From Gemmatimonadota bacterium (GTDB lineage Bacteria > Latescibacterota > UBA2968): DNA of 55,619 nucleotides. Position 1 is the stretch's first letter, and every line of letters begins with the position of its first letter. The notes under the pieces are model-generated. The model saw nothing but the letters and a program-made list of their open reading frames with translations, was not told the origin of the DNA and did not search any database. Shown here piece by piece: positions 37,649 through 54,110 of the stretch. The stretch spans positions 1 to 55,619 of the forward strand of contig VXRD01000007.1 of assembly GCA_009838845.1 (NCBI GenBank), in the 5' to 3' direction. Position numbers and translations under genes: made by a program.

Positions 37649-37746
37649 CTGCAAATCCTCTTAAGTGAAGCAATAACAGTCCATCTATACAATGTACCGC
37701 CCGTTGGGTAGCCGAGCAAGGTTTTCTTGATTAGTCACGACAATTC

Positions 37747-37847: not shown

Positions 37848-38243
37848 ATGACCATCAAACGCGCAGAACTGGACCGACGAGAGATCGATTTCTCGGATGT
37901 GGTCTCCGGACACCAGCTATCGCCTGTACATCCTGGTGAAATCCTGCGCGATGAGTTTCTTATTCCGATGAATCTCAGTGTGACTCGCCTTGCTCAAGGG
38001 ATCAAGGTTTCGGAGAAGGACTTAGACGCTATCGTGCATGGAATTAATGGAATTACAATCGATACCGCGCTACGCCTTGGTCACTACTTTGGCATGACCC
38101 CTGAGTTCTGGATGAATCTTCAAACCCACTACGATCTCGATGTCGCCGAGCACACAGTACGTCTCAAAATTGAGCGGGAGATAGAGCCGTATGCTGAGTT
38201 CGCACCATCTTCCGACTCAGCACGGCAAATGGACACAACATGA
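37848..38243 (+). CDS. HigA-family XRE antitoxin-like regulator
   Basis: The 131-residue protein has the characteristic HigA opening SPVHPGEILRDEFLIPMNLS near residue 25. A helix-turn-helix follows (VTRLAQGIKVSEKDLDAIVHG), then the family's ITIDTALRLGHYFGMTPEFW. Proteins of this type bind their own promoter and neutralise a toxin. The usual HigB (RelE-like) toxin gene is absent upstream, where only about 200 non-coding bases separate it from the enolase gene. The next gene overlaps by ATGA. AGAGG lies 6 bases before the ATG. Confidence 0.88.
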   Translation: MTIKRAELDRREIDFSDVVSGHQLSPVHPGEILRDEFLIPMNLSVTRLAQGIKVSEKDLDAIVHGINGITIDTALRLGHYFGMTPEFWMNLQTHYDLDVAEHTVRLKIEREIEPYAEFAPSSDSARQMDTT

Positions 38244-38647
38244 TCTCTATTTCGACCCTGAAGAAAATTTTATCCCGACAAGACGGCCGGGAGCAACTTC
38301 GAACTCCGAAACACGAGGAAGCCAACTTGCGTTTGCAATACCGCAAGCTGGATGTAGGATATCTGTCTCTCTATGACGGAAAGTGGCATTTCGAGTACAC
38401 CGATGATTTCCGGTGCCAGACGAATGTTTGCCCTCTCATTGACTTTCCCCATACAGACAAGCCCTACGAATCCGAAGTATTGTGGCCGTTCTTCGCTATT
38501 CGCATCCCCGGCCTGGGACAACCAGCTGTCCAGCGCGTGATCCGCGAGGAGAACCTCGATAAACATAACGAAGCCCAACTTCTCAAGCGTTTTGGCAAAA
38601 TGACAATCGCAAATCCGTTCATCCTGACCCCAATCTCTCAGGAGTGA
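38240..38647 (+). CDS. Stand-alone HipA N-terminal-domain protein (HipS-like)
   Basis: The 135-residue protein matches the N-terminal subdomain of HipA. VGYLSLYDGKWHFEYTDDF lies near residue 38. PLIDFPHTDK and PFFAIRIPGLGQPAVQRV follow, ending with LLKRFGKMTIANPFIL. No kinase domain follows, and a terminator lies 34 bases downstream. In HipBST systems a protein of this size (HipS) is separate and acts as the antitoxin; here the partner kinase (HipT) is missing from the window. Start ATG overlaps the HigA stop, so the pair is co-translated. Assignment to the domain is fairly clear; the function is not. Confidence 0.8.
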   Translation: MISISTLKKILSRQDGREQLRTPKHEEANLRLQYRKLDVGYLSLYDGKWHFEYTDDFRCQTNVCPLIDFPHTDKPYESEVLWPFFAIRIPGLGQPAVQRVIREENLDKHNEAQLLKRFGKMTIANPFILTPISQE

Positions 38648-38847: not shown

Positions 38848-40725
38848 TTAAAAACGCAGGGCAACTCGAAAACCGTTGCTGAGGTCCCGGATAACGGTGT
38901 AAATCCCACTGCGATTCGCCGAACGCAAGACCCACGGTTCGTCGTACCACGAACCACCACGCAACACGCGCCTATCGCAACTACCAGACTCCCACGCAGA
39001 ACCGTCGGTAGGTGCGCCCACATAGCTATCATTCCAACAGTCTTCCACCCACTCCCACACATTGCCGTGCATATCGTGAATGCCCCAAGCATTGGCTCTG
39101 AAACTACCCACTAGTGCCGTCTTGTCAGCATCCCACCGACTGCCACAACCATCGCAATTGGCACGGTTGCGACCTATCTCGTTGCCCCAGCTATACCGTG
39201 TATCCGTACCTGATCGCGCCACATACTCCCATTCTGATTCACTCAGCAATCCATATTTATGGCCCGTCCTTGCAGACAACCAACGCACATAAGACTGCGC
39301 ATCTTTCCAACTCACATTGATCACCGGACGATTCCCACGGCCCCAACCCTCATCAGAAACATACCTATCGCAACCACCAGCATCTGCACATGCATCCCAC
39401 TCGGCAAACGTTACCTCATACACGCCCACTGCAAACCGATAATCTATACGCACAGCATGACGAGGACCCTCATCATCATGGCCTTTCTCCCCGCTGGGAG
39501 ACCCCATCGTGAACGAACCTGATGGGACCACCACCATCTCCGGACATTCATTACAGTCCCTGAATCTCCCGACTACCCTCTGTTCTTGACGACGCGCTGA
39601 CTCACGCGCCGCATCTACCCCTACTGCTTCCTGTGTCCGACGACGCTGATCGGGGAGATAATAATAATAGACGACGGCACAGGCCCACAGAGCAACCACG
39701 CAGGCAAACGCAACAAATAACTTTCCTTTGGACTTAGTGGAATGATGCACAGGTGGGGCATCATCTCTCTCTTGATCCTGCACTTCTGATCGGGTTGCGG
39801 TTTCAGACCTTGTGACTGACAGTTCCTCATCCACACTACCTGGTACCTCCCCCTCCAGCGCAACACGCCAAGCTGCCACACTTTGCGGGCGATCCCCTTC
39901 ATCCACTGCCAACGCCCAATCTATCGCCGATAAAAATCCAGCACTCGCTTGACCCGCACATCGCTCAACTACTGGGATCAGAGGATCATCACGCATCCGA
40001 TCTGTCGCATCATCCGGAACCTCACCCGTCAATGCGCGGTAGCATACGCCCCCCAACGTATAGATGTCTGTCCATGGGCCCTGATCACCCCGACTCGAAT
40101 ACTGCTCTATCGGCGCATATCCCGGCGTGATAATTGACGTAACTGAACGGCTCCTTGCACCTATCGCCTGACGCGCTGAACCAAAGTCCAACAACACAGG
40201 CGAATTGTCCTCGTCTCGGATGATGATATTGCCAGGCTTAATATCTCGATGCAAAAAATCAGCCCTGTGCACCACCTCCAGACCATCAAGGATCGGATAC
40301 AGTATGGATTTGAGCTCAGATTCTTTCAATGTCCCTTTGCGTTCCAAAAACGCCGATAAGGTCTCACCCTCAGCATATTCCATCACGATATACGCCGTAC
40401 CATGTGCCTCAAAGAAACGATACACCTTAATAATGTGGCGATGATCAAAGCGAGCTAAGGCACGCGCTTCATCCACGAAGCGATCTAATCCCCACTCAAA
40501 ATCACCTCGAAACTGGCTCGCTTGTGGCACAACGCTATTATCACCTGTACGTGTAGCAATATCAGACGGCAGGTATTCCTTGATAGCAACGGCTTTGTCC
40601 AAATTGTGGTCAAAGCCGAGATAGGTCATGCCGAATCCCCCAAAGCCGAGGACACGTACCAGTTCGTATTCCTGAAGTCGGTGCCCTTGTGGCAGGGCGT
40701 TAAGAGGTTGTTGTGCTTCGTTCAC
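38848..40725 (-). CDS. Membrane Ser/Thr protein kinase with C-terminal SUMF1/FGE-like domain
   Basis: The 625-residue protein starts with GTG (AAGGA upstream; GTGA overlap with the PP2C stop). Residues 20-280 are a Hanks-type kinase with VAIKEYLPS, HRDIKPGN, LLDFGSAR and SIITPGYAPIEQY, so it looks active. A helix at about 345-370 spans the membrane. Residues 390-625 resemble the SUMF1/FGE domain (VVPSGSFTMGS, GNVWEWVEDCW, GFRVALRF). The two catalytic Cys of formylglycine-generating enzyme are absent, since the region reads GGSWYDEPWVLRSANRS. It may sense or bind an outside ligand. Its kinase half shares a 248-base identical stretch with the second kinase. Confidence 0.92.
   Translation of the reverse strand: MNEAQQPLNALPQGHRLQEYELVRVLGFGGFGMTYLGFDHNLDKAVAIKEYLPSDIATRTGDNSVVPQASQFRGDFEWGLDRFVDEARALARFDHRHIIKVYRFFEAHGTAYIVMEYAEGETLSAFLERKGTLKESELKSILYPILDGLEVVHRADFLHRDIKPGNIIIRDEDNSPVLLDFGSARQAIGARSRSVTSIITPGYAPIEQYSSRGDQGPWTDIYTLGGVCYRALTGEVPDDATDRMRDDPLIPVVERCAGQASAGFLSAIDWALAVDEGDRPQSVAAWRVALEGEVPGSVDEELSVTRSETATRSEVQDQERDDAPPVHHSTKSKGKLFVAFACVVALWACAVVYYYYLPDQRRRTQEAVGVDAARESARRQEQRVVGRFRDCNECPEMVVVPSGSFTMGSPSGEKGHDDEGPRHAVRIDYRFAVGVYEVTFAEWDACADAGGCDRYVSDEGWGRGNRPVINVSWKDAQSYVRWLSARTGHKYGLLSESEWEYVARSGTDTRYSWGNEIGRNRANCDGCGSRWDADKTALVGSFRANAWGIHDMHGNVWEWVEDCWNDSYVGAPTDGSAWESGSCDRRVLRGGSWYDEPWVLRSANRSGIYTVIRDLSNGFRVALRF
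40268..40515. repeat. Copy A of a 248-bp identical segment in the two kinase genes
   Basis: This stretch matches 43757-44004 at every base, in the same orientation, by direct comparison. It codes the N-terminal part of the kinase domain up to about the catalytic loop. Outside it the two genes differ at many positions, so either a recent duplication with selection or gene conversion is likely. Confidence 0.9.
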
Positions 40726-41930
40726 CTCGTTCCTTTCGATTGGGTCGTAGTGTCGGGTGTTGTTGATCGCTGCGCTGGAATGTCTTCGGTTTCTTTCTTC
40801 GATGATTCCTCATTCACCTTGCCTGTGTCGAGTTGTGCTGGCGCATCCTTTGCAGGTGGCTCTGCCTGTGGAGATTTGCCCCCGGTCTGCACTTCTGGCA
40901 AATCAGAAGTAATCGTTTCCGTGCCAGTAGCTGGTGGAGAAACATCCTGTTTAGTAGGCTCTTCCTGCGGTGCCTCTGGAGGTTCAATCGCCGCCTCTTT
41001 ATCAGACATGTGCGACGTAAGCCAATAAACCACTCCAAGTGCTATCAAGACCCCGTATAACGATATCCAAAACAGGCTCTTCTTTCGTCCTTGTCGCTGA
41101 AGACCCTCGCGCTGTTTGGACTCCTCCTGAACAGCATCAAAGGGAAGCTCTTCCACCCCACAATCTGTCTCCGGAGCATAGAGCAACACCGTAGTATTGT
41201 CCTGATTGGGATGTCCGACTTCTTCCACAGCATGTATAAGTGCCTCAACGACTTCTGACAGAGTATCATCCTGCATGTCCTGTAAAATACCCGCAATCTC
41301 CTCATCCTCCAGTGTCATTAAACCATCACTCGCCAATAACAGGCGGTCGCTTTTCCGAATAGCAACAGGTTGCGAGGAGACATCAATCATGTGAATTTCA
41401 TCGCCCATAACCGCCGAGCGTAGAGCGTGGCGTTTGGGATCCGTCGCCGCTTCTTCCTCAGTCATACGCCCAACCGCCACCAGGTTCGCAAGCACTGGTG
41501 CCATCGAATGATCGGCATTGAGACGGTGTAACTTGCCATCGCGGAACAACCACAAAGGAGAATCGCCCACGCTGATCCAGTCGAGTCCGTGTTGTGAAAC
41601 AACGGCTGCGACCACAGTCGATCCCATGCCCTCCAATTCAGGGTTTTCTTTGATTGCTTCGGCGAGGGCATCATTGGCCGCATTGAGACAGACCCGGAGA
41701 CGATCTGGAATCGGCCCATCCGTGTCGTGATAGATCTCCACAAAGGTCTTGACCACCGTCCTGCTCGCCGTACCGCCGCTGACGTGCCCACCCATCCCAT
41801 CAGCTATCAACAAGACTTCGCTCCCATCAGCATCGGGATCACCCGGCTCAATCAGGCCGTAATCGTCCTCCTGATATTCCCGTCCACCGGGAATTTGCTG
41901 CGCGGCAAATCGTCCGTCTAAAAGATCCAT
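40722..41930 (-). CDS. PP2C-type Ser/Thr phosphatase with membrane anchor
   Basis: The 402-residue protein has a PP2C domain at about 1-250. Metal-binding acidic sites appear in QEDDYG and LLIADGMGGHVSGG, with GDSPLWLFRDG and HPNQDNTTVLL further on. A helix (KKSLFWISLYGVLIALGVVYWL) crosses the membrane near residue 290, followed by a Pro/Glu/Thr-rich tail of about 90 residues that would lie outside. It should reverse the phosphorylation made by the two kinases beside it. The gene sits between them, 4 bases overlapping the downstream kinase. Confidence 0.92.
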   Translation of the reverse strand: MDLLDGRFAAQQIPGGREYQEDDYGLIEPGDPDADGSEVLLIADGMGGHVSGGTASRTVVKTFVEIYHDTDGPIPDRLRVCLNAANDALAEAIKENPELEGMGSTVVAAVVSQHGLDWISVGDSPLWLFRDGKLHRLNADHSMAPVLANLVAVGRMTEEEAATDPKRHALRSAVMGDEIHMIDVSSQPVAIRKSDRLLLASDGLMTLEDEEIAGILQDMQDDTLSEVVEALIHAVEEVGHPNQDNTTVLLYAPETDCGVEELPFDAVQEESKQREGLQRQGRKKSLFWISLYGVLIALGVVYWLTSHMSDKEAAIEPPEAPQEEPTKQDVSPPATGTETITSDLPEVQTGGKSPQAEPPAKDAPAQLDTGKVNEESSKKETEDIPAQRSTTPDTTTQSKGTR

Positions 41931-42000
41931 ATACTTCCTCTTAATCGCGTGTTCTACCTGAGCACGATTATCAGTATTACTGTGTATGCACTCATGGCCT

Positions 42001-42189
42001 TCATCGGGCCGCGTTCAAAACTGACCACAGGTGGATCAACCAGCCCATCCAGATAAACCACAGGATAGCCGCCAGAACAAATTGGAAAAGGGCAATTAGC
42101 AAACGTCCCTGAAGCAACTGCCCCAAACTCGGAATAAAAAAACTACACAAAGCTGCAAGAACATTACCGCCCGAACCTTGTCCCGCCAT
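42001..42189 (-). CDS. Small two-helix membrane protein
   Basis: From the ATG at 42187-42189, with AAAGGAGG 8 bases upstream, the product is 62 residues. A longer frame to 42213 would include that site. LAALCSFFIPSLGQLLQG and ALFQFVLAAILWFIWMG are two hydrophobic segments. The pattern (short helix, FIPSLGQLxQG, helix, W-x-W) resembles small 'TM2/YqaE-like' proteins, but I cannot name a family. Its place between the kinase-ankyrin and PP2C genes suggests a part in the same membrane complex. Confidence 0.75.
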   Translation of the reverse strand: MAGQGSGGNVLAALCSFFIPSLGQLLQGRLLIALFQFVLAAILWFIWMGWLIHLWSVLNAAR

Positions 42190-42240
42190 ACTATTTCCTC
42201 CTTTTATCGACATTAATAAAACCGCGTTGCCCCAACACTG

Positions 42241-44214
42241 CTATTTTTCTCGCCCTCCATAACGACGCAACACCTCAGCGGCCTCACGAGCATTTTGCCC
42301 AATCGCAAGGCGTAGCGGCGTCACTCCATTAATCTTCGCGTTGACATCGGCTCCATGTTTGAGCAATACCTCTACCATCCTATGAGCGTTTTTCTGCGCC
42401 GCCCAGTGCAGCGGCGTTCTGCCAGTGTTGTCTTTTGCGTGGACATCGGCGCCTGACTTGAGCAATATTTCGGCTGTCGCAGAAGCATCTTGCAACGCCG
42501 CCGAGTGTAGTGGCGTCCTGCCTTCGTTGTTTTTGGCGTATATATTGGTGCTGGCCTTGAGCAATATTTCGGCTGTCGCAGAAGCATCTTTATACGCTGC
42601 CCAATGCAGCGGCGTATTGCCATCATTATCTTTTGCGTTTATATCGGCTCCTGACTTGAGCAGGAATATAGTCAGCATAGGTAAGTTCAGTTTCGCTGTA
42701 ATGTGCAGGTCCGTCTCACCCTTGTGTCTTCCCCTCGGCTGTGGCATGCGCCCTACCTTTGCGACAAATGCCTGACGCTGCTTTTCCAATAATGCCGCTT
42801 GCTCTTGACGTTGCTTCTCAGCCTGTTCGGCTACCAGTCTTGCTTGCTCTTGACGTTGCTTTTCCAATAATGCTGCTTGTTCCTGACGCCGCTTCTCAGC
42901 CTGTTCGGCTACCCATCTTGCTTGCTCTTGACGCTGCTTCTCAGCCTGTTCTTGACGCCACCTCTCCGCTTGGCGTGATGATGACAAACGACTTTCCAAT
43001 TCTGACAACATAGGCGCATCTGAATCAATCACACGTATCGAATCCACATAGATACCCGCTATAATGAAATCCTTATCCTTCAAAGCTTCCTTAAATTTCT
43101 CCTCATACCGTTCAATTTTGGCCTGAGATTTTTTGTTTTCCCACCACAAATACCCCCCTAAACTCACAAGCAATAGACACAAACCCAAAGCTCCCCACAG
43201 CACCTTGCCGTGGACCCTTGGTTGTCGCTCTGACTCGGATGCAACAACTTGAGACACAGCAGATGGTGTACTTGCCTCCTCAACAGGAGCAACAGAAATC
43301 GAACTGTCGTCGCCTGATGGAAAAGCAGTGACTGTCGTCCCTTCCAACTTTGCACGCCATTCAGTGATACTCTGCGGACGATCTCCCTCATCCACAGCCA
43401 ACGCCCAATCTATTGCAGACAGAAATTCTGCACTCACTTGACCTGCACATCGCTCAGACACTGGAATCAGAGGATCATCACGCATGCGATCCGTCGCATC
43501 ATACGGCACTTCACCAGTCAATGCTCGATAGCATACACCGCCCAATGCATAGATATCTGTCCAGGGGCCTTGATCTCCCCGACTCGAATACTGCTCTATC
43601 GGCGCGTAACCCGGCGTAATAATTGACGTAACTGAACGACTTCGAGCACCTATTGCCTGACGTGCTGAACCAAAGTCTAACAACACGGGCGAATCATCCT
43701 CATCACGAATGATGATGTTACCCGGCTTGATATCTCGATGCAAAAAATCTGCCCTATGCACCACCTCCAGACCATCAAGGATCGGATACAGTATGGATTT
43801 GAGCTCAGATTCTTTCAATGTCCCTTTGCGTTCCAAAAACGCCGATAAGGTCTCACCCTCAGCATATTCCATCACGATATACGCCGTACCATGTGCCTCA
43901 AAGAAACGATACACCTTAATAATGTGGCGATGATCAAAGCGAGCTAAGGCACGCGCTTCATCCACGAAGCGATCTAATCCCCACTCAAAATCACCTCGAA
44001 ACTGACTCGCTTGTGGGGCAACACTGTTATCGCTTGTACGGGTAGCAATATCGGATGGGAGGTATTCTTTGATAGCAACGGCTTTGTCCAGATTGTGGTC
44101 AAAGCCGAGATAGGTCATGCCGAATCCGCCAAAGCCGAGGACACGTACCAGTTCGTATTCCTGAAGCCGGTACCCCTGGGGTAAGGCGTTAAGGGGTTGT
44201 TGTGCATCGTTCAT
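42241..44214 (-). CDS. Ser/Thr protein kinase with membrane helix, coiled coil and ankyrin repeats
   Basis: The 657-residue protein has an N-terminal kinase (VAIKEYLPS, HRDIKPGNIII, LLDFGSARQ, TPGYAPIEQY) with nearly the same sequence as the neighbouring kinase. A membrane helix follows at about 345 (GKVLWGALGLCLLLVSLGGY). Residues 400-490 are a charged coiled coil of repeated AEKQRQEQARLVAEQ-type units. The last 170 residues carry four ankyrin repeats (DGNTPLHWAAYKD, EGRTPLHSAALQD, TGRTPLHWAAQKN). Ankyrin repeats bind proteins, so the tail probably recruits a target. The ATG has an Arg-rich gap region upstream rather than a strong site. Confidence 0.92.
   Translation of the reverse strand: MNDAQQPLNALPQGYRLQEYELVRVLGFGGFGMTYLGFDHNLDKAVAIKEYLPSDIATRTSDNSVAPQASQFRGDFEWGLDRFVDEARALARFDHRHIIKVYRFFEAHGTAYIVMEYAEGETLSAFLERKGTLKESELKSILYPILDGLEVVHRADFLHRDIKPGNIIIRDEDDSPVLLDFGSARQAIGARSRSVTSIITPGYAPIEQYSSRGDQGPWTDIYALGGVCYRALTGEVPYDATDRMRDDPLIPVSERCAGQVSAEFLSAIDWALAVDEGDRPQSITEWRAKLEGTTVTAFPSGDDSSISVAPVEEASTPSAVSQVVASESERQPRVHGKVLWGALGLCLLLVSLGGYLWWENKKSQAKIERYEEKFKEALKDKDFIIAGIYVDSIRVIDSDAPMLSELESRLSSSRQAERWRQEQAEKQRQEQARWVAEQAEKRRQEQAALLEKQRQEQARLVAEQAEKQRQEQAALLEKQRQAFVAKVGRMPQPRGRHKGETDLHITAKLNLPMLTIFLLKSGADINAKDNDGNTPLHWAAYKDASATAEILLKASTNIYAKNNEGRTPLHSAALQDASATAEILLKSGADVHAKDNTGRTPLHWAAQKNAHRMVEVLLKHGADVNAKINGVTPLRLAIGQNAREAAEVLRRYGGREK
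43757..44004. repeat. Copy B of a 248-bp identical segment in the two kinase genes
   Basis: Identical to 40268-40515 at all 248 positions. It lies at the same place in the kinase domain of the second gene. Confidence 0.9.
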
Positions 44215-44249
44215 AGCATTTCTCTTGATGATGTATTTTTTCCGTCAAA

Positions 44250-44394
44250 AAAATAACAATCAAAACCTTCTGGATTGCGGCTAAGATCATGCCGCAATGA
44301 CAATCAAAACTACTGGATTACTGGCGTTGTAGTGAGGATATCCCCTGCCTCCGGTAGGCGCGTGGTGACTCGACGCCCTGCCGCAATGACAATC
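44250..44394. repeat. Short intergenic repeats and hairpin
   Basis: TGCCGCAATGACAATC occurs twice in direct orientation, at 44290-44305 and 44379-44394. Next to the first copy, ATTGCGGC and GCCGCAAT form an 8-bp perfect stem around a 9-base loop. CTGGATT also recurs. No T-tract follows, so it is not a clear terminator. This fills most of the 181-base gap between the kinase-ankyrin gene and the FHA gene. Confidence 0.6.
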
Positions 44395-44395
44395 G

Positions 44396-45046
44396 CTATT
44401 CCTGACTCTCTTCTGTATCCTGCCAATCAAATGCATCGCCGCATAAGGGCATAAATCGCAGAACCGTATTGCCGATGCTAATATGGCTCAACGCGGGCAG
44501 TTCAACCGGGGTAAGCACGGGCTGATCATTGAGGTAGGTTAGATTAGTACCCCCACCGTGCTGCACATAAAACTTCCTGCCACGCGGATCATAGGTCACA
44601 GTAGCATGTCCGCCACGCGAAATTTGATCATCACCGAAATTGAGATTGACGCGGTCAGTTTCTCCGCGTCCAATCGAATTAGAACCATAACCCAATTGCA
44701 TGGCCCTTCCTTTTCCTGGTCCCTTGACAATAACCAACCATCCCACAACCGGATCATCCATACCGTTGGATTCCTCAGCGCGTTCTTCCAGACGCGCTTG
44801 ATCTTCCTGCCTGCGACGACCACCTACGATCCGGGTCTTTTCTTCAGGAATCGCTTGGGATTGAGAACCGCTCGCATCCATCTTTTGAGTAGGTGCATCC
44901 AAACGCCCAGAACCAGCGGCTTGATCACCGCCCGGTGGTGCTGGCGGCATCGGCCTTTGTGCCCTATCAGTCGGCTGGGTCGCATCTTCTCCTTTATTCG
45001 TTTTCTCTTCAATAATCTTACCATCGGGTCCGCGATAAACAGGCAT
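44396..45046 (-). CDS. FHA-domain protein with disordered N-terminus
   Basis: The 216-residue protein has an N-terminal Pro/Gln/Gly-rich linker of about 95 residues. A C-terminal FHA domain follows: LVIVKGPGKGRAMQL, NSIGRGETDRVNLNF, ISRGGHATV and FYVQHGGGTNLTYLN. Arg in SIGR and Ser-Arg in ISR keep the phosphothreonine-binding pattern. FHA domains bind phosphothreonine, so it is a natural reader of the kinases encoded in this cluster. It lies 12 bases after the MotA-like gene. Confidence 0.9.
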   Translation of the reverse strand: MPVYRGPDGKIIEEKTNKGEDATQPTDRAQRPMPPAPPGGDQAAGSGRLDAPTQKMDASGSQSQAIPEEKTRIVGGRRRQEDQARLEERAEESNGMDDPVVGWLVIVKGPGKGRAMQLGYGSNSIGRGETDRVNLNFGDDQISRGGHATVTYDPRGRKFYVQHGGGTNLTYLNDQPVLTPVELPALSHISIGNTVLRFMPLCGDAFDWQDTEESQE

Positions 45047-45058
45047 AACACTACCCTC

Positions 45059-45844
45059 CTATTTTTCATAAAGTCGGTTGATTAAATTATCCAAACAGTA
45101 CTGGCCCGATTGATTCAAAGCCATCTCTTCTCTACCTTGCGCGATATGCAGTGCAAAAACCAACAGTGCTGATTGAATCAGAGCGAGTAAGGTCGTGTAA
45201 AACGCGACACCCAGCCGCCCGGTGATCTGCGCCAGCAACTTTGGATCTTGTGGATTTTCAACACTCGCCGCATAATCCAGTGCAAACGCAATCCCCACCA
45301 CCGTGCCAATAAAACCCATCGTAGGAATCAGCCAGACGAGATATCGCAGCATAGTATATTTGAGTTCAAGTTCGTGCTGAAATAATTCCAGAGAAGAATT
45401 TAACAGAGAATTGGTCTGATTGACCGATCTGCTCCCCTGAAATTGCAAAATACAGCGCGCGATTAAGCGTTGTAAAAAGAAAGTCCGTTCCCCATCCATG
45501 GGGCGCATCTTTTGATAGAGAGTTCCCAGGTCCTGTGCCCGCAACATGGTCTCTTCATCTTCTGGAAGGTATCGCCTGGAGATCTGTGCCAACTCCAAAT
45601 TGGACTGGTTGAATCGCCCCCACAACTCGCCACATCCCATGCAAAACATCAGCCACATGACATTCTGGATCGTAAATGGATAAGGAAAATTTTCCGTGTG
45701 GCGATCGAGCAAAAAAGCACCCACCTGTGAATCGGGATTATCAAAGATAGTACTCAGCAGCGCAATAAGGACAATACCGATTCCCAAACCGATGCCAGAT
45801 GCAATGAGGCGTTGATTTATTTCCACTGTTTGATCCGTTGCCAT
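45059..45844 (-). CDS. MotA/TolQ/ExbB-like ion-channel subunit
   Basis: The 261-residue protein has helices near 15-34, 58-75, 166-189 and 210-233. The last two carry the family marks: WLIPTMGFIGTVVGIAFALDY (the TolQ/ExbB GLLGTVWGI position) and RLGVAFYTTLLALI (the ALxTTxxGL position). MotA, TolQ and ExbB form pentamers that conduct ions and drive a partner. The partner here is probably the next upstream gene's membrane-anchored VWA protein. The cytoplasmic region of about 90 residues between helices 2 and 3 is shorter than MotA's. It lies 1 base from the FHA gene. Confidence 0.9.
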   Translation of the reverse strand: MATDQTVEINQRLIASGIGLGIGIVLIALLSTIFDNPDSQVGAFLLDRHTENFPYPFTIQNVMWLMFCMGCGELWGRFNQSNLELAQISRRYLPEDEETMLRAQDLGTLYQKMRPMDGERTFFLQRLIARCILQFQGSRSVNQTNSLLNSSLELFQHELELKYTMLRYLVWLIPTMGFIGTVVGIAFALDYAASVENPQDPKLLAQITGRLGVAFYTTLLALIQSALLVFALHIAQGREEMALNQSGQYCLDNLINRLYEK

Positions 45845-45845
45845 G

Positions 45846-46211
45846 TCAGTCCTCGTCTCCTATAATTTCACCCGTATCTACATTGCGACGCACTGGCCCC
45901 TCGGGCAAATCATCCTTGCGTCTTACAATATCCCGGTCGCCTTGCTTAACCATCGCCATAAGTTGCTGTGCGGTCGTCTGATACCGACCGAGCAAAATTG
46001 CATCCATCGGAGCTATAAAACCCTGCGTAATAGGCTGCCACTCGCCATTTCGCGCAACACAACTTCCGCCGCTACTACCGCAATCGGTTAGATAGTACGC
46101 CCCCTTCGCAGTCACAACCAATTCCGCCTGAACGCGAGACACTGTGCTGTCATCAATGCGAATATCCACATCCGAACCGCGACCAATTCGATAAATAGAA
46201 AATTTAGACAT
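45846..46211 (-). CDS. Small FHA-like protein
   Basis: The 121-residue protein is essentially one FHA fold at residues 1-80, with IYRIGRGSDVDIRID and STVSRVQAELVV. The usual SRxH reads SRVQ, and the usual DLNSxNGT reads DCGSSGGSC, so two ligand-contact positions vary. The Arg and Ser of the core remain. The last 40 residues are charged and probably flexible. It sits between the VWA-anchor gene and the MotA-like gene and may regulate the motor in response to phosphorylation. Confidence 0.85.
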   Translation of the reverse strand: MSKFSIYRIGRGSDVDIRIDDSTVSRVQAELVVTAKGAYYLTDCGSSGGSCVARNGEWQPITQGFIAPMDAILLGRYQTTAQQLMAMVKQGDRDIVRRKDDLPEGPVRRNVDTGEIIGDED

Positions 46212-46223
46212 CTCGAAATCCTC

Positions 46224-47240
46224 TCAACCGGGTTTGGCACCTACGAAGTAACCACCATTCCGCTTTGTCAACTGCACCAGAAAATCGATAAAATCTCGTT
46301 TTGTGACATAGATGCCAATAGCGACAGCGTGTATCGGTATTTTTTTTCTATTTTGAGCCGTTACAGCATTGACGACCTGCCGCCAATCTTCCGAGGGAGC
46401 ACCATCGCTCAATAGAATAATCTCTTCGGGATTAAGCGCCAGTGCTGCCGTCAGAGCTTCGCGGGTTGGCGTACCACCATCCACGAGACCCATCCAATTG
46501 TTTATGGTCGCTACAACGCGATTTCGCGTATTCTTCTGTACTCGAAAATAACGCCTATTTTCAGGCCAAAAATGCAATCGCGCCCTGCGATTTGGGGAGT
46601 GAAAACCAATAAGAACCAATTCTATTTCCGATTGAAAAGAAGCAAGCATATCTCGTACTGACAATGTGATGAATTGGCGATAGTCTTGTCCACGAGGTTG
46701 ATAAATACTGCCTGACATATCCACTACAATGACAAATTTTCTTGCTGTGGTCTTAATACCCAGTAAAACAGATGTGCCATTGAGTTGCTTTTCCAGAGCT
46801 TTAATTCGTTCTTCAAGTGGATTATTTTGGGGTTTCGGGGCTTTAGTCCGCTCTTGTTCCAGCTTAGCTCTTTCTTGTTCCAGTTTGGCCATTTCTTGTT
46901 CCAGTTTGACCCGCTCCTGTTTTAATCTGATCTGCTCTTGTTCCAATCTGGCTTTTTCTCGCTGCAGTTCAGCATCTTCAACCTTTGTTTTTGGAACTTT
47001 GGCTTTCTCCTGTTTCAATTTAGCCCGCTCTTGTTCCAACCCAGTCCTTTCCTGCCTTAGTTTAGCCCGCTCTTGTTCCAATCTGGCTTTTTCTTCAACT
47101 ATACGTTTTGATGAATCGCCCAGATTTGGAAAAAAGGGAAACAACACAATGGTAATCAAAATAAAAGCTCCCATTGCCGAAGCGAATAAATCGAGCGCAG
47201 ACATGCTAAAAATGTTAATTTCTCGGCTGCGTTTTTTCAT
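46224..47240 (-). CDS. TolR/MotB-like anchor with coiled coil and VWA domain
   Basis: From the ATG at 47238-47240 the product is 338 residues; a longer frame to 47288 would run into the upstream protease gene. Residues 8-38 (INIFSMSALDLFASAMGAFI onward) form one membrane helix with Asp17 near its start, as in TolR, ExbD and MotB. Residues 45-135 are a long coiled coil of EQERAKL-type repeats. Residues 168-330 form a VWA domain with MIDAS residues Asp174, Ser176, Ser178, Thr257 and Asp279. Here the usual OmpA or TolR C-terminal domain is replaced by VWA. It should pair with the MotA/ExbB-like channel. Confidence 0.9.
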   Translation of the reverse strand: MKKRSREINIFSMSALDLFASAMGAFILITIVLFPFFPNLGDSSKRIVEEKARLEQERAKLRQERTGLEQERAKLKQEKAKVPKTKVEDAELQREKARLEQEQIRLKQERVKLEQEMAKLEQERAKLEQERTKAPKPQNNPLEERIKALEKQLNGTSVLLGIKTTARKFVIVVDMSGSIYQPRGQDYRQFITLSVRDMLASFQSEIELVLIGFHSPNRRARLHFWPENRRYFRVQKNTRNRVVATINNWMGLVDGGTPTREALTAALALNPEEIILLSDGAPSEDWRQVVNAVTAQNRKKIPIHAVAIGIYVTKRDFIDFLVQLTKRNGGYFVGAKPG

Positions 47241-47253
47241 TTCCAGGATGCTC

Positions 47254-48555
47254 CTATTCCAACTTTGAAACTCTGAACTCCAAACCACCCAATCTCACTA
47301 AAGCCCCATAGTCTAAAAGCATGGGCTGAAACGGAGACAATTTGTGGTGATTCAGAAAAGTCCCGTTACGCGAGTTCAAATCTTCAATATAAAACTGACC
47401 CGCTTGTACAGCTATTCGCGCATGCCGTCTCGATACATTTTGGTCCTGTATAATTTCATTCACCAACTCGGGATGCCTGCCCAAAGAAATTCCCAAACGC
47501 TGCCCCGCGAATCTGTTTGGCGGTAAAGCAATGCGGATGGGATTGCCATTACCATCAAACCCGGCCAGCATCAGACCGTGTTCTGGAAGTTTTTCGGTTA
47601 CTCGTTTTTGGACAGTTCCGATGGGTTCTTTTGCTTTTAAGTGCTGGCTGATATACTCTGCGACGTGAATGATTTGTTGCCGGGGCTTCTTCAAGGCAAG
47701 TATCAGGGCAGCCAAAGCCACAGCACCCAACAATATAATCCAAATAAGAAATCTCTGGCTCGCATCGTCGGCTTGAGTCTTTGTTCGTTCTGCCTCCGCA
47801 GAACGCCCGGTAGAATCAGCCGTCAAACACGCATCGTCCTCAGATTGAAAAGAGATTGCGTTGTCGCGTAACAGCTTGGCCAACTCCTCAATATGAGAAG
47901 ACCAGTAAATACCCGCCGCGTGATGAACTCGCGTTACCCCATCAGATGGACCAGCAATGACGACAAGTGATGCCTGCGTATTAACTCCAATCACCCTTCC
48001 GCAGTCGTCCAACAAAGGGCCGCCGCTATTACCGGGGTTCGTAGGCGCGTTGTGTTGAATAATCCTGAATTTTTGAGTCTTCCATGCACCTGAAAAAATT
48101 CTACCAATAACACCATCCTGTACAGTTGGATCATAGGCAGGTCTGTTCCTATCGGCTCCCCCCGGATAACCGATAGCCCACACCTTCTGCCCCTTCCTCG
48201 ATGGCGCGAGCGAAAGCGTAATCGGTGGAAGATTGATCCCCGGCGCGCGTACGATTGCCAGATCGAATTCATAGGACATGGCAATTACGTCAACATCGTA
48301 CAGGGTATTGGAATTTGTCGGTATTGTTTTGATCAAACTGCCATCGGCAATAACGTGTACATTCGTGGCGATATAACCCCGATCGTTGATCACAAATCCA
48401 GTACCCGTACCAATCCCCTGACTTGTCTTCGTCACAATACGCACAACACTCTTCTCAAGCGCTTCAAAGTCTGGCGCAGCAACAGCATCGCGAAAAAAAA
48501 ACAGAAACACGAGAACAAGACCGACAAGACGCCAATATTTGCATATCAGTTGCAA
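47254..48555 (-). CDS. Trypsin-like serine protease with membrane helix and FHA domain, active-looking
   Basis: The 433-residue protein starts with TTG, 6 bases after GGAG. A signal peptide is followed by a trypsin-like domain with His67 (TNVHV), Asp98 (FDLAIV) and Ser177 (PGNSGGPLL), a complete triad of the HtrA-like type. A membrane helix spans about 269-288. The C-terminal FHA domain (345-433) has LGRHPELV, VSRRHARI and DLNSRNGTFL, all canonical. The protease should be outside the membrane and the FHA domain inside, a plausible signal link. No PDZ domain is present. Confidence 0.92.
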   Translation of the reverse strand: MQLICKYWRLVGLVLVFLFFFRDAVAAPDFEALEKSVVRIVTKTSQGIGTGTGFVINDRGYIATNVHVIADGSLIKTIPTNSNTLYDVDVIAMSYEFDLAIVRAPGINLPPITLSLAPSRKGQKVWAIGYPGGADRNRPAYDPTVQDGVIGRIFSGAWKTQKFRIIQHNAPTNPGNSGGPLLDDCGRVIGVNTQASLVVIAGPSDGVTRVHHAAGIYWSSHIEELAKLLRDNAISFQSEDDACLTADSTGRSAEAERTKTQADDASQRFLIWIILLGAVALAALILALKKPRQQIIHVAEYISQHLKAKEPIGTVQKRVTEKLPEHGLMLAGFDGNGNPIRIALPPNRFAGQRLGISLGRHPELVNEIIQDQNVSRRHARIAVQAGQFYIEDLNSRNGTFLNHHKLSPFQPMLLDYGALVRLGGLEFRVSKLE

Positions 48556-48558
48556 TTT

Positions 48559-50148
48559 TCACTCCTGCATCAAACGTACCTGAAAAACAACAGGCCCCAC
48601 CTCGAGTTGGTCATTGTTTTGCAACACCGCAGGTTCGCGCGGATTGAGCAAGCGTCCGTTAATTCTGGAACCATTCGTACTACCCAGATCCTCTACATAG
48701 AGATTTCCGTCAGCATACAAAAGCCTGATGTGTTCGCGGGATACGGACTCGTGGTCAATAATAAATTCCGCGTTGGCAGGGCTTCTTCCAAGCGTGACAC
48801 CTGAAGGCAGAGCCAATGCTGGGATACTCAACGCAAAGGGTTGGCCCGTGTTGTCCTGACCCTCTAATAGACATCTGAAAGGTGCAAACTGTGGTGCCTC
48901 AGACACAGCTTGTCGTGCGGCTTCGGCCTCTTGTTCTGCCTCGCTCAAACGAGAAGCAGTCGCTTGCAATTGTGCCCTTTTCCTGCGTGCGAACATAAAC
49001 CAGCCGAAAAGCACCAGAATGACCAGAATACCCCCGGAGACGATGGCCCATTGTAATCTTTGCGATGTCTTTTCACGCTCTTCTTGATGTACTGCGGCGA
49101 GACTATCTGCCGCTGATTTTTGAGCAGCAATACGCTCCTGTGTCGCCTTCTTTAATGAATCTGTCCTCGCCTTCTCCTGTTCTAATGCCAGCCGCGCTGT
49201 ATTGATACTATCTTGTGCTGCCTTAACACTATCTGCCGCTGCCTTACTTGCTAAGTCTGCCTGTGCTTTCGCCTTTTCGGCTGCCAGCCGAGCGGCTTCT
49301 GCTTTTTCAGCCGCCTGTTGTTTTTCTTTGACAGCTTTTTCAGCCGCCAATCGGGCAACCCTTTCTGCGCTAACACTATCTCTTGCTGCTTTTGCTACCG
49401 CTTTGATACTATCTTCTGCGATTTTTCTATCTCGTTCAGTACGTTCAACGGCACTCAAACATTCTTCTTTAACTACTGAATGTGTAATTTCCCGGTCTTT
49501 GAGCACAGCAATGATATCGACGCTACGCAAGGCAAAAACTGTTCCTCTGGGTTCCACATTTTTCCGAAACGGCCAGGATCCGCTCTTCGGGTCTGGCAGA
49601 TTGATAGCGACAACATCACCACACTCATTAAACAGAGGCATACCAAATGCTTTGGAAGTCACCATGGCATTGTGCTGTAGCAGATGTGCCACGGGATCAC
49701 TCACCTTTTTTCCCGGCACATCCTGGTATGTACCAATAGTCCCGCGGGCAATCTGGATACTATCCTGAGGCGTCAGCTTCAGGGTTTCCACCATCCGGCC
49801 CACAGCGGCTCCTCGCTCGGATAAATTGAGAGGCAGTAAACCTAGACCCTGTGCGCGCAACAAAGCGAGATTCAATTCACGATTGGCAAAGACCTGCTGT
49901 GACACGATCTCGGCACCAGTCTTTCGAGCCCGGACAGTCAATCCCTCCGCATCCGCCAGGAGATGGGCATTCGTCAGCACATACCCCTCTTCATTCACAA
50001 CAAAACCGCTTCCCTCAGCCAAAATCTTATGATTCTTGTACACACGCACCTGCACGATGCTCTCAGATACGACAGCAACATCTATTTCCGCAAATACAGG
50101 GCTGAGGAATAGGAACATCACGAAATGCACAAAAAGAAAAACACGCAT
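48559..50148 (-). CDS. Pseudoprotease with coiled coil, membrane helix and FHA domain
   Basis: From the ATG at 50146-50148, with AAGGAG 6 bases upstream, the product is 529 residues. The trypsin-like domain keeps His62 (TNAHLL). The Asp position is Asn93 (ELNLALL), and the Ser loop reads MVTSKAFGMPLF, with Phe167 where the sister has the catalytic Ser. The domain is therefore probably inactive. Residues 240-360 are an Ala/Lys/Glu-rich helical stretch, a helix crosses the membrane near 385 (WAIVSGGILVILVLFGWFMF), and the last 95 residues are a canonical FHA domain (LGRSPANAE, VSREHIRL, DLGSTNGSRI). It is probably the first gene of the ten-gene unit. Confidence 0.9.
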   Translation of the reverse strand: MRVFLFVHFVMFLFLSPVFAEIDVAVVSESIVQVRVYKNHKILAEGSGFVVNEEGYVLTNAHLLADAEGLTVRARKTGAEIVSQQVFANRELNLALLRAQGLGLLPLNLSERGAAVGRMVETLKLTPQDSIQIARGTIGTYQDVPGKKVSDPVAHLLQHNAMVTSKAFGMPLFNECGDVVAINLPDPKSGSWPFRKNVEPRGTVFALRSVDIIAVLKDREITHSVVKEECLSAVERTERDRKIAEDSIKAVAKAARDSVSAERVARLAAEKAVKEKQQAAEKAEAARLAAEKAKAQADLASKAAADSVKAAQDSINTARLALEQEKARTDSLKKATQERIAAQKSAADSLAAVHQEEREKTSQRLQWAIVSGGILVILVLFGWFMFARRKRAQLQATASRLSEAEQEAEAARQAVSEAPQFAPFRCLLEGQDNTGQPFALSIPALALPSGVTLGRSPANAEFIIDHESVSREHIRLLYADGNLYVEDLGSTNGSRINGRLLNPREPAVLQNNDQLEVGPVVFQVRLMQE

Positions 50149-50779: not shown

Positions 50780-51214
50780 TCAAGAATTAACCTGCATATC
50801 CAAGAAAGCCCTGGGCGTGAGAATGGGTATATCTTGAAAATCACTTAAGGCAGTAAGGTGTCGATCTCCAGAGATGATGTAATCTGCCTCGGCTTCAAGA
50901 GCGCACCCCAGCACCATATTATCATCAGGATCCGCATCTATCAAGTTTACTTCTCTATGACCAGCGGTTAATTCCGCTATCGCAACAATCTTATCTACGA
51001 TCTCTCCTGCCTGCTCAACGGTCTTTCCCCCTCTTTTTAGCAAATCAGCCATCTTTTCATAATGAATGACGCGCTGAATTTCATCTATAAGAGGTGCAGA
51101 GAGACAAAGAGATGCTTTCTGGTCAAAGACCAGATCGAGTATAATGCCTGGACTCCCGTGCGGATTCAGAATAGCACTGATTAATACATTGGTATCCAGC
51201 ACAATTCGCGTCAT
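50780..51214 (-). CDS. PIN-domain ribonuclease toxin (VapC-like, COG1569)
   Basis: The 144-residue protein has the PIN acidic sites: Asp7 (IVLDTNVLISA), DADPDDNMVLGCA near residue 92 and ISGDRHLTAL near 113. The opening MTRIVLDTNVLISAIL and the DPDDN motif fit the putative-toxin PIN family paired with short antitoxins. PIN toxins usually cut RNA. The ATG overlaps the antitoxin stop as ATGA. Confidence 0.9.
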   Translation of the reverse strand: MTRIVLDTNVLISAILNPHGSPGIILDLVFDQKASLCLSAPLIDEIQRVIHYEKMADLLKRGGKTVEQAGEIVDKIVAIAELTAGHREVNLIDADPDDNMVLGCALEAEADYIISGDRHLTALSDFQDIPILTPRAFLDMQVNS

Positions 51215-51453
51215 GATCTTTGCGCTCTTACTGCCCGTCTGGACTCACCAATAATCTGTTCAATCTCCTCGGAGGATATATCCTTAAAGCCTGCCCGGAA
51301 CTGCGCCACGGCCTCTCGGATATCTTCGCGTGTCTGTGAGGACTCATCCTCTATGATAATGAAGGCTCGAGCCTTAGTCGTCTTAGGCTTCCCCGTGGCC
51401 TCGAGCCGTTCAATCAGTGCGCCAATGGTGGTATTGGTCTCGGTAATTTTCAT
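51211..51453 (-). CDS. Antitoxin of the PIN toxin
   Basis: The 80-residue protein lies directly upstream of the PIN gene with an ATGA overlap, the standard antitoxin-toxin order. It contains FIIIEDESSQTREDIREAV and EEIEQIIGESRRAVRAQR. I cannot name its DNA-binding fold, so the call rests mostly on position, size and charge. The opening KITETNTTIGALIERLE has no recognised motif. Confidence 0.75.
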   Translation of the reverse strand: MKITETNTTIGALIERLEATGKPKTTKARAFIIIEDESSQTREDIREAVAQFRAGFKDISSEEIEQIIGESRRAVRAQRS

Positions 51454-52070: not shown

Positions 52071-54110
52071 TTAGTATCCCGAACCAACTTCATCCAGTAA
52101 TTTTTCCAGTGCCTCAACATCTGTAACGGGTTCTGAGCACACAAAATTGCGACAGATATAAGCCGTGGCGCGTCCGTCGATCATACCGCGATTTTGCAGA
52201 AGTGGAATAGCGTCGGACACTGGATCACTTCCCCCACATAAAACGACATTGGGTCGCCATGTTTTATTCACCACATTGAGCAGCGCAACCGTATCCTCTC
52301 TATCTCGATCCCCCAAAACAGCGACTTCAACTGCACCTTGCAAATAGAGATCCAGGGCACAAACCATATTGCCAAAACCCGAAGGCACCTCCCGAATATG
52401 CCTGCCAAAAAGATGCAAAATACGGGTGGCCATATCCCGCCAATCTTCGCGCTCCAGCAGCGTTCCCAATCGCAGCAACGCCATCGCCCCCACCGAATTA
52501 CCGGACGGCGTGGCATTGTCAAAGGGATTTTTTGACCGCACAATCAGCTCCTCGTGATCTCTCCCAGTATAAAAAAATCCACCATCTTCTCGATCCCAGA
52601 ACTGATCTATCATCACCTCCATAAAATCGCGGGCAGCAACGAGATAAGAAGGCTCAAAACTCGCCTCGTACAAATCGACTAACCCAACGATCAAACAGGC
52701 ATAATCATCCTGATAGGCATTGAAACGCGCGCGACCGTCTTTATAAGTATGCAACAAAAGCCCGCGATCCGTACACATATTCCCCAGGATAAATTTAGCC
52801 GCATCTGACGCACTATCCAGATAAACGGAATCGCCAAATGCCCGATACGCCTGTGCAAAAGCCGAAATCATCATCCCATTCCAACTCACCTGAATTTTTT
52901 CATCGCGCCCGGGTTTTATACGCTCTTCTCGCGCCTCAAACAAAATCGCACATCCGCGTGCCATTGCGTTTTCATCAACCTCATAAACATGCGGGACATT
53001 CAGAATATTTTTCCCCTCGAAATTACCTCGCGCCGTCACATCGAAATACCGACAAAATACCGCCCCTTCTTCTTCGCCCAATAAATCCACCACCTCCTGC
53101 GGCGACCACACAAAAAACTTGCCCTCTTCCCCCTCGCTATCGGCATCTTGCGTAGAATAAAAACCGCCCTCTGGCGCGGTCATCTCTCGGCGCGTATAAT
53201 CCAGAATTGACCTGGCAATGCGCGCAAAAAGCGGTTGCTCAGTCACCTGATAAGTCTGCGTATAAAGCTGTGCGAGCAGCGCATTGTCATATAGCATCTT
53301 CTCAAAATGGGGTACAAGCCAGTAGCGATCCACAGAATAGCGGTGAAATCCCCCGCCGAGCTGATCGTAAATGCCCCCGCGCGCCATTTTTTCGAGCGTC
53401 AATGTCACCATCGCAAGTGCCTCTTCGTTCCCCGTACGCAAATAGGTCCGCAAAAACACATCGAGATTCATCGAATTTGGGAACTTAGGCTGTGTTCCAA
53501 ACCCGCCATTTTGAAAATCAAAATTCGATCTGATCTTTTGAAATGCACCGTCAAAATCCGTCTCAGTCAGGTCATCTGCCAACGCATCAATACGCGCCAT
53601 CGCTCGCAAGTGCTCGTGCAATCGATTCGCCACATCTGCGACATTATCACCTTTTTCCCGATAATGCCTGGCAACGGATTCCAGAACCTGGGGAAAGCCC
53701 GGTATGTTGTGCCTGCTCTCAGGCGGGAAATACGTGCCTCCGTAAAACGGAACACCCTGCGGAGTCAAAAACACACTCATAGGCCATCCACCTGAACCGG
53801 TCATAACCTGTACTGCATTCATATAAATTTCATCGACATCGGGGCGTTCTTCCCGATCGACCTTCACATTGACAAAATGCGCGTTCATAATCTGCGCGAT
53901 TTCCTCATTTTCAAAACACTCGTGCTCCATCACATGGCACCAGTGACAGGCCGCATATCCCACGCTCAAAAAAATGGGCTTGTCTTCGGCAGTAGCCTTT
54001 TCAAATGCCTCTTCTCCCCACGGAAACCACGCAACGGGATTGTGTGCATGCTGCAATAAATACGGGCTGGTCTCGTGGACCAATCGGTTGGTATCTCTTC
54101 TATCGTCCAT
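52071..54110 (-). CDS. Thioredoxin-domain DUF255 protein (YyaL/SPATA20 family)
   Basis: The 679-residue protein starts at the ATG at 54108-54110, with GAGG 5 bases upstream. It begins with the family's [22 protein letters not shown] thioredoxin-like domain follows with Cys55-x2-Cys58 ([13 protein letters not shown]) and the phrase [20 protein letters not shown]. The rest is an alpha/alpha-barrel-like region with [19 protein letters not shown], a common mark of this family. The function is unresolved; a role in redox or nucleotide-sugar chemistry has been suggested. It lies 7 bases after the phosphoesterase gene. Confidence 0.92.

Follow-up and report, generated by a model that had tools for sequence, protein, structure and literature searches.

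What could be the purpose of a bacterial gene cluster in which serine/threonine kinases, a PP2C phosphatase and phospho-reading FHA domains are encoded beside trypsin-like proteases and a motor-type membrane channel? This question is raised by positions 38848-50148 (- strand) of a 55,619-nucleotide stretch of contig VXRD01000007.1, referred to here as the window, from the Latescibacterota-like genome of a Gemmatimonadota bacterium (GenBank assembly GCA_009838845.1). All ten open reading frames (ORFs; designated here g1 through to g10) that a first-pass annotation had described at this locus were found on a single strand, and Pfam confirmed the domains it had assigned, g8 alone being without a match. 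Nine of these genes, with g8 excluded, were judged to constitute the system. We propose, with about an even chance of being correct, that they specify an envelope-sensing, phosphothreonine-switched TolQ-VWA motor coupled to periplasmic proteolysis.

The putative motor is encoded by g5 (45059..45844) and g3 (46224..47240, its start placed where homologues begin). The g5 product is a TolQ/ExbB/MotA-type channel that matched Pfam family MotA_ExbB above the cut-off (7.5e-11), and an alignment of 43 diverse sequences revealed invariant residues including T181, T217, T218, P174, G177 and G180. Its predicted structure (pLDDT 84) returned TolQ and ExbB as top PDB matches with modest Foldseek scores (E 2e-3 to 1e-2, TM-score 0.4-0.56), suggesting that these represent the nearest fold. 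The g3 product is predicted to consist of a short cytosolic N-terminus, an Asp-bearing transmembrane (TM) helix, or transpore helix, a coiled coil and a VWA domain with a metal-ion-dependent adhesion site (MIDAS; Pfam VWA_3). In the structural model, the TM helix spans residues 27-52 and is followed by the coiled coil and a VWA fold, for which the best Foldseek matches were VWA domains, with ITIH1 at the top. Residue D33 of the TM helix and MIDAS residues D190, S194 and D295 were invariant among 25 aligned sequences, and the TM Asp was matched by pattern in 75 of 80 relatives, the remaining five representing misread starts or a pattern miss. The pair thus displays the features of MotA/TolQ/ExbB motors, i.e. 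a MotA_ExbB-family channel with pore Thr residues and a partner with a single Asp-bearing TM helix, and g5 and g3 would represent a pentameric ring and a dimeric axle, respectively, in a proposed 5:2 stoichiometry. In some relatives, the place of the VWA domain is taken by a domain that appears rich in beta structure and has no Pfam match, with the TM segment and its Asp unchanged, and this retention under a different outer head suggests that the TM helix is the working part common to both forms. The replacing head carries the signature DVDLHVxDPxG...GPGNEIW (L053:12468-13214, L078:10766-11548 and L020:10769-11503).

A bare motor of this kind, composed of TolQ and a TM-anchored VWA protein, was published in 2025 (PMC12204202, Mol Biol Evol), where TolQ-like rings with TM-Asp VWA partners are predicted and modelled, Idiomarina homologues are included and AlphaFold3 models support the pairing. 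The window resembles this family, compared here by its description, in having a TolQ-like ring gene beside an Asp-TM VWA gene that replaces TolR/ExbD, with no TolR/ExbD gene nearby, and both occur in Idiomarina relatives (L113 and L114); Idiomarina-type genomes contain a single VWA gene of the g3 kind, located at the related locus. However, the published family mostly comprises heterologous VWA pairs beside tolQ, and such pairs were observed at five related loci (L047, L049, L089, L091 and L104), not in the window. The words kinase and phosphatase never occur in the main text of that paper, and FHA occurs only within the name FhaC. The motor part has thus already been predicted, and its phospho-signalling partners seem undescribed. 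In agreement with the first-pass annotation, which gave the cluster no recognised name, no named system holding precisely these genes was found in a literature search that left most subscription journals outside its reach; MotA and TolQ are unmentioned in work on conflict systems (Kaur 2020), as are VWA and FHA in the other motor papers compared.

The signalling genes that accompany the motor pair encode two kinases, a phosphatase and two FHA proteins. The g7 product (42241..44214) is a Ser/Thr kinase with HRD and DFG motifs, a TM segment, a coiled coil and ankyrin repeats (Pfam Pkinase and Ank), while that of g10 (38848..40725) combines a Ser/Thr kinase with active motifs (Pkinase, 6.7e-38), a TM segment and an FGE-sulfatase/C-type-lectin-fold domain (FGE-sulfatase, 1.6e-51). 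The g9 product (40722..41930) is a PP2C phosphatase with a TM segment and a short tail (Pfam PP2C_2), and also matched an Stp1-like model (2.7e-42, under that model's cut-off). Hydropathy indicates that in g7, g9 and g10 the catalytic domain lies N-terminal of a single TM segment (residues 334-352, 286-304 and 336-354, respectively). Because this topology places the ankyrin, FGE and g3 VWA domains beyond their TM segments, all three are predicted to be extracytoplasmic. Across 80 related loci and one Rhizobium plasmid, from which all motif counts for kinases, PP2C proteins and proteases were taken, neighbouring kinases retained HRD in 61 and DFG in 68 of 77 cases, and the PP2C motif GMGG was present in 52 of 61. 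The outer domains of 62 neighbourhood kinases were found to vary (FGE 11, ankyrin 8, PG_binding_1 8, Sel1 6, beta-helix 6, PEGA 3 and leucine-rich repeat (LRR) 3), and those predicted to bind peptidoglycan would suit an envelope sensor.

The two kinases of the window are themselves related, as the first 300 aa of g10 are 92 % identical to g7 and no other close paralogue of the g7 kinase was found in the genome. Their kinase halves (39850-40725 in g10 and 43340-44214 in g7) exhibit 94-100 % identity over bases 200-500 and 84-90 % around this stretch, and the proteins share no relationship beyond the kinase domain. This mosaic pattern suggests gene conversion in which the outer domains were swapped. 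The FGE domain ends in a stretch resembling those of diversity-generating retroelements (DGRs), but active diversification was rejected, as no reverse transcriptase was identified: the RVT_1 profile gave no match in the genome and returned matches in control genomes, template/variable repeats lying outside this search.

The two FHA genes of the signalling set are g4 (45846..46211), which encodes a stand-alone FHA domain (Pfam FHA), and g6 (44396..45046), in which the FHA domain (Pfam FHA) follows a long unstructured N-terminal arm and the protein gave an FhaB/FipA-like NCBIfam match (6e-14, under the model's cut-off). This arm, of ~100 residues, is freely variable with a single exception, a motif that reads EEKTR[IVL] in the kin of the window and EEKTRIV in g6 itself; its T71 is conserved to at least 90 % among 21 diverse sequences. 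The Thr motif was detected in 47 of 51 g6-type arms, 40 of them with the acidic-context form. In OdhI and GarA, a phosphorylatable threonine within an ETTS motif precedes the FHA domain (PMC8546545), and by analogy T71 may act as a similar phosphoacceptor switch. The likeness to OdhI, GarA and FhaB lies in a phosphoacceptor-type Thr N-terminal to the FHA domain, whereas the motif (EEKTR rather than ETTS) and the partners differ. The combination of membrane kinase, PP2C and FHA protein also recalls the PpkA-PppA-Fha logic that operates over the envelope machine of the type VI secretion system; membership of that threonine-phosphorylation pathway was rejected, as the genome yielded no match to a VipB/TssC sheath gene.

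The predicted output of the cluster involves g1 (48559..50148, starting at the ATG at 50148, where homologues begin) and g2 (47254..48555), both of which matched Pfam Trypsin_2 and FHA. Each is predicted to comprise an N-terminal signal-like segment, an extracytoplasmic trypsin-like domain, a single TM segment and a cytosolic FHA domain, with an additional coiled coil ahead of the TM segment in g1 (hydrophobic stretches at residues 20-38 and 389-407 in g1; TM at 270-288 in g2). The HtrA-like protease g2 is active by its motifs, as its triad (H67, D98 and S177) was invariant among nine aligned sequences. In g1, the Asp position is occupied by Asn and FGMP replaces GNSGG, as in ten of ten aligned relatives, which bears out the first-pass description of this protein as a pseudoprotease: the catalytic serine is missing from 24 of 24 g1-type homologues, while GxSGG is kept in 28 of 29 of the g2 type. 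Because assigning the types by best match involves some circularity, a protease tree was built, in which the active copies formed one clade (support 100/100) with one later loss (L077); inactive copies, which derive from several phyla, fell outside. This topology suggests that the split between active and serine-less forms is ancient and predates the spread of the cluster between phyla. In Idiomarinaceae, a thermolysin-type metallopeptidase with two FHA domains adjoins the cluster (L114:17267-19846, and also in the L100, L105, L107 and L113 region), and FHA proteins of similar size fill this slot in Alteromonadaceae.

To what extent these genes belong together was judged from their recurrence. 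Within the window, gaps are mostly short, as described at first pass (1-13 bp among g1 to g6; 27 and 70 bp among g7 to g10, with a 4-bp overlap of g9 and g10), the single exception being 181 bp between g6 and g7. In a phylum-level search, g5 was matched in 13 of 64 genomes, with the order g1-g2-g3-g4-g5-g6-PP2C/kinase repeated. When 84,980 species genomes were searched for two short peptide patterns, an approach that provides a lower bound, 148 relatives were obtained, of which 80 were kept. Carriers are labelled Latescibacterota, Pseudomonadota, Gemmatimonadota, Acidobacteriota, Binatota, Bacteroidota/Rhodothermota and Bdellovibrionota, and the neighbourhood therefore appears to be present, with variations, in at least seven phyla, these labels being those of the submitters and from bins that may hold contamination. 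Domain maps revealed the same parts in shuffled order, so that the genes are not scattered and the expectation of a recurring neighbourhood was borne out. The g3 (VWA) slot, FHA, PP2C and kinase genes occurred together in 29 of 34 well-flanked loci (>8 kb on either side) outside a Gemmatimonadota-dominated minimal clade, which was counted apart. Conversely, around 12 other MotA/ExbB genes of three genomes, taken as controls, the same search detected none of these four parts, the only matches being two to the protease, both in one stretch. Partner genes lay on the same strand in 351 cases and on the opposite strand in 19. Given this recurrence in other phyla and absence at the control genes, the arrangement appears to be far beyond chance. 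The g5 tree departs from strict phylum labels, a pattern compatible with horizontal transfer and equally with misbinning.

Matches to MotA-like genes on cyanobacterial plasmids were rejected as relatives, as they belong to a separate three-gene unit. This unit consists of a different MotA-like protein (466-470 aa) and two small hypothetical genes (L021:9779-12358 and L022:9650-12250); its Anabaena plasmid copy adjoins type III-B CRISPR and viperin genes, and its Microcystis plasmid copy an N-6 DNA methylase/helicase group. It is a candidate defence unit.

The cluster of the window lies between an enolase-like gene ending at 37654 and a DUF255 gene starting at 52071, and within the genus this site was occupied in its own genome, in G030 and, judging from partial contigs, in G031, rearranged in G038 and empty in seven genomes (G029, G032, G033, G034, G035, G036 and G037), where the flanking genes are ~0.7-1.3 kb apart. 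Copies of the cluster were located elsewhere in G032 and G033, and a broken copy in G038. The g8 gene (42001..42213), which encodes a small hydrophobic membrane protein of 70 aa, was found alone, with an intact ORF and ~93 % identity, at four of the empty sites (G029, G033, G034 and G037), and matches to it occurred in only three of 81 related loci, all from Latescibacterota. As g8 is retained at the site in members of the genus without the cluster, it does not track the cluster and its inclusion in the first-pass annotation was abandoned; it is probably resident at the site, the cluster having been either inserted around it or lost from there. In G030 and G032, g8 is fused to a kinase ORF, possibly as a side effect of insertion next to it. 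Toxin-antitoxin-like genes flank the cluster at 37848-38647 (helix-turn-helix and HipA-N-like) and 50780-51453 (PIN and a small partner), and are absent from the empty sites of relatives.

The sequence evidence for the proposed motor thus consists of gene content, predicted topology, the conserved catalytic, MIDAS, TM-Asp and Thr residues, and conserved linkage. With regard to the kinase-controlled envelope machine of the first-pass annotation, the linkage of kinase, PP2C and FHA genes to the channel/anchor pair and the retention of catalytic residues across phyla were upheld, while the control itself, i.e. the direction of signalling, the gating of the motor and its coupling to the proteases, is what we infer. 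A TolQ/ExbB-like ring of five g5 subunits would enclose a g3 dimer, with the TM Asp of g3 in the proton path, and ion flow would turn or pull the coiled coil and VWA head on the periplasmic side. The TM kinases g7 and g10 would monitor the envelope by means of exchangeable outer domains, which are ankyrin and FGE in the window and peptidoglycan-binding, PEGA, Sel1, beta-helix or LRR domains in relatives. Once activated, they would phosphorylate threonines, most likely including T71 of the g6 arm. These marks would be read by the FHA domains of g6 and g4 and by those carried on cytosolic tails in g1 and g2, which would gather the motor and the protease/pseudoprotease pair, and g9 would reset them. 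As output, the VWA domain would exert force on, or capture, an envelope target that g2 cleaves, with g1 acting as a regulatory subunit or inhibitor of g2. Because the sensors of relatives carry peptidoglycan-binding domains and the effectors are predicted to lie outside the cytoplasm, envelope surveillance or repair is favoured as the physiological role.

Several observations weigh against this scheme. The protease-FHA genes are missing from approximately half of the related loci, and the Gemmatimonadota-dominated clade, in which g5 and g3 occur together and are often convergent, mostly lacks the remaining parts, including PP2C and FHA; these absences indicate that the protease-FHA genes, as well as PP2C and FHA, may be accessory. 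In this clade, two genes without a Pfam match lie upstream of g5 (L062:7237-9273 and similar loci), in 13 and 10 loci, respectively. The FHA domain of the g4 copy in the window is degenerate at the His and Asn positions for phospho-binding (VSRVQ and GSSGG), whereas SRxH is retained in most homologues. Furthermore, peptidoglycan-binding domains were observed on the kinases of relatives and not on g7 or g10, the cluster encodes no outer-membrane partner, and no experiments on homologues were found in the literature.

Among the alternatives, an anti-phage or conflict function fares best, though it was judged unlikely. Phage arriving at the envelope would be recognised by kinase outer domains or by the motor, and killing or silencing of the cell would follow through the protease or channel, as proposed for Zorya and VMAP-type systems. 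The patchy occurrence in the genus, with one decayed copy and empty sites, would fit such a function, as would the toxin-antitoxin-like neighbours and the presence, among the swappable kinase domains, of FGE, for which conflict systems show a preference (PMC7159879, PMC10907252). However, the effectors are predicted to be extracytoplasmic, there is no nuclease or nucleotide-signal enzyme, and, with no reverse transcriptase in the genome, the FGE domain would be without active DGR diversification. PADLOC returned no system component, only generic kinase and protease matches. The 124 flanking proteins of related loci, scanned with PADLOC and Pfam and without a matched control, were mostly ordinary, with single or few matches to defence families (MADS, HEC-01, SspH, AriA, RmrA and Cas3), and the defence role suggested at first pass thus gained no positive evidence. 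The first-pass likenesses to Zorya and the TerY triads were not supported. Zorya shares a MotA-family ring and an axle protein reaching the periplasm, and a weak ZorA motif match was obtained, but ZorA has a long cytosolic tail and ZorB a peptidoglycan-binding head, whereas g5 is nearest TolQ/ExbB and the g3 head is a VWA rather than an OmpA-like domain; no PADLOC match to ZorC, ZorD or ZorE occurred among the ten proteins, and membership was rejected. The TerY-P triad and the VMAP ternary system contain similar parts (VWA, PP2C and kinase, or VWA, trypsin and FGE, respectively). Both were rejected: the TerY VWA protein is soluble and cytosolic, while that of g3 is TM-anchored, predicted to be periplasmic and accompanied by a channel, and no MoxR ATPase or VMAP protein was identified among the ten genes and ten flanking proteins scanned.

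Less probable again is an adhesion or gliding machine, in which the motor would drag a VWA adhesin and the FHA proteins would act as inner-membrane couplers. In the Agl-Glt machinery of Myxococcus, a TolQ-like motor driven by the proton motive force, AglR, binds the FHA membrane protein GltG (PMC3169522), VWA domains frequently bind surfaces, and sponge- or filament-type hosts are found among the carriers. Yet Agl-Glt includes TolR-like partners and tetratricopeptide repeat (TPR), TonB-like and outer-membrane parts and lacks the kinase/PP2C/protease set, whereas no TPR, TonB-like or outer-membrane barrel gene is present here, the VWA domain is fixed to the motor axle rather than forming an outer-membrane lipoprotein, and GltG-type matches cover only the FHA domain, far under the cut-off. 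About as improbable is a signalling complex for phospho-control of periplasmic proteolysis with g5-g3 as a passive scaffold or ion leak. FHA and protease domains are joined through the membrane in g1 and g2, as this reading would require, but the small set of invariant residues includes the pore Thr and the TM Asp, and reduced Gemmatimonadota-type loci without proteases still keep g5 and g3.

Energised envelope motors are known from flagella, TonB, Tol-Pal, gliding, the type IX secretion system and Zorya, and the regulation of most of these is poorly understood. The phosphothreonine-switched motor proposed here could, tentatively and with clearly less than even confidence, represent an undescribed class of trans-envelope machine, in which kinases with interchangeable sensors switch a proton-driven TolQ-VWA motor via FHA adaptors, with a linked protease pair. 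If a widespread motor is indeed encoded alongside the kinases, phosphatase and phospho-readers that serve it, the gating of a proton-driven machine by Ser/Thr phosphorylation would become tractable, and the cluster would give context to the orphan TolQ-VWA pairs reported without a function. With one active and one inactive protease, each bearing a cytosolic FHA tail, the cluster also suggests a possible route by which a phosphorylation signal reaches a protease across the membrane. If the proposal is true, a phosphothreonine-gated force generator would be present in at least seven phyla.

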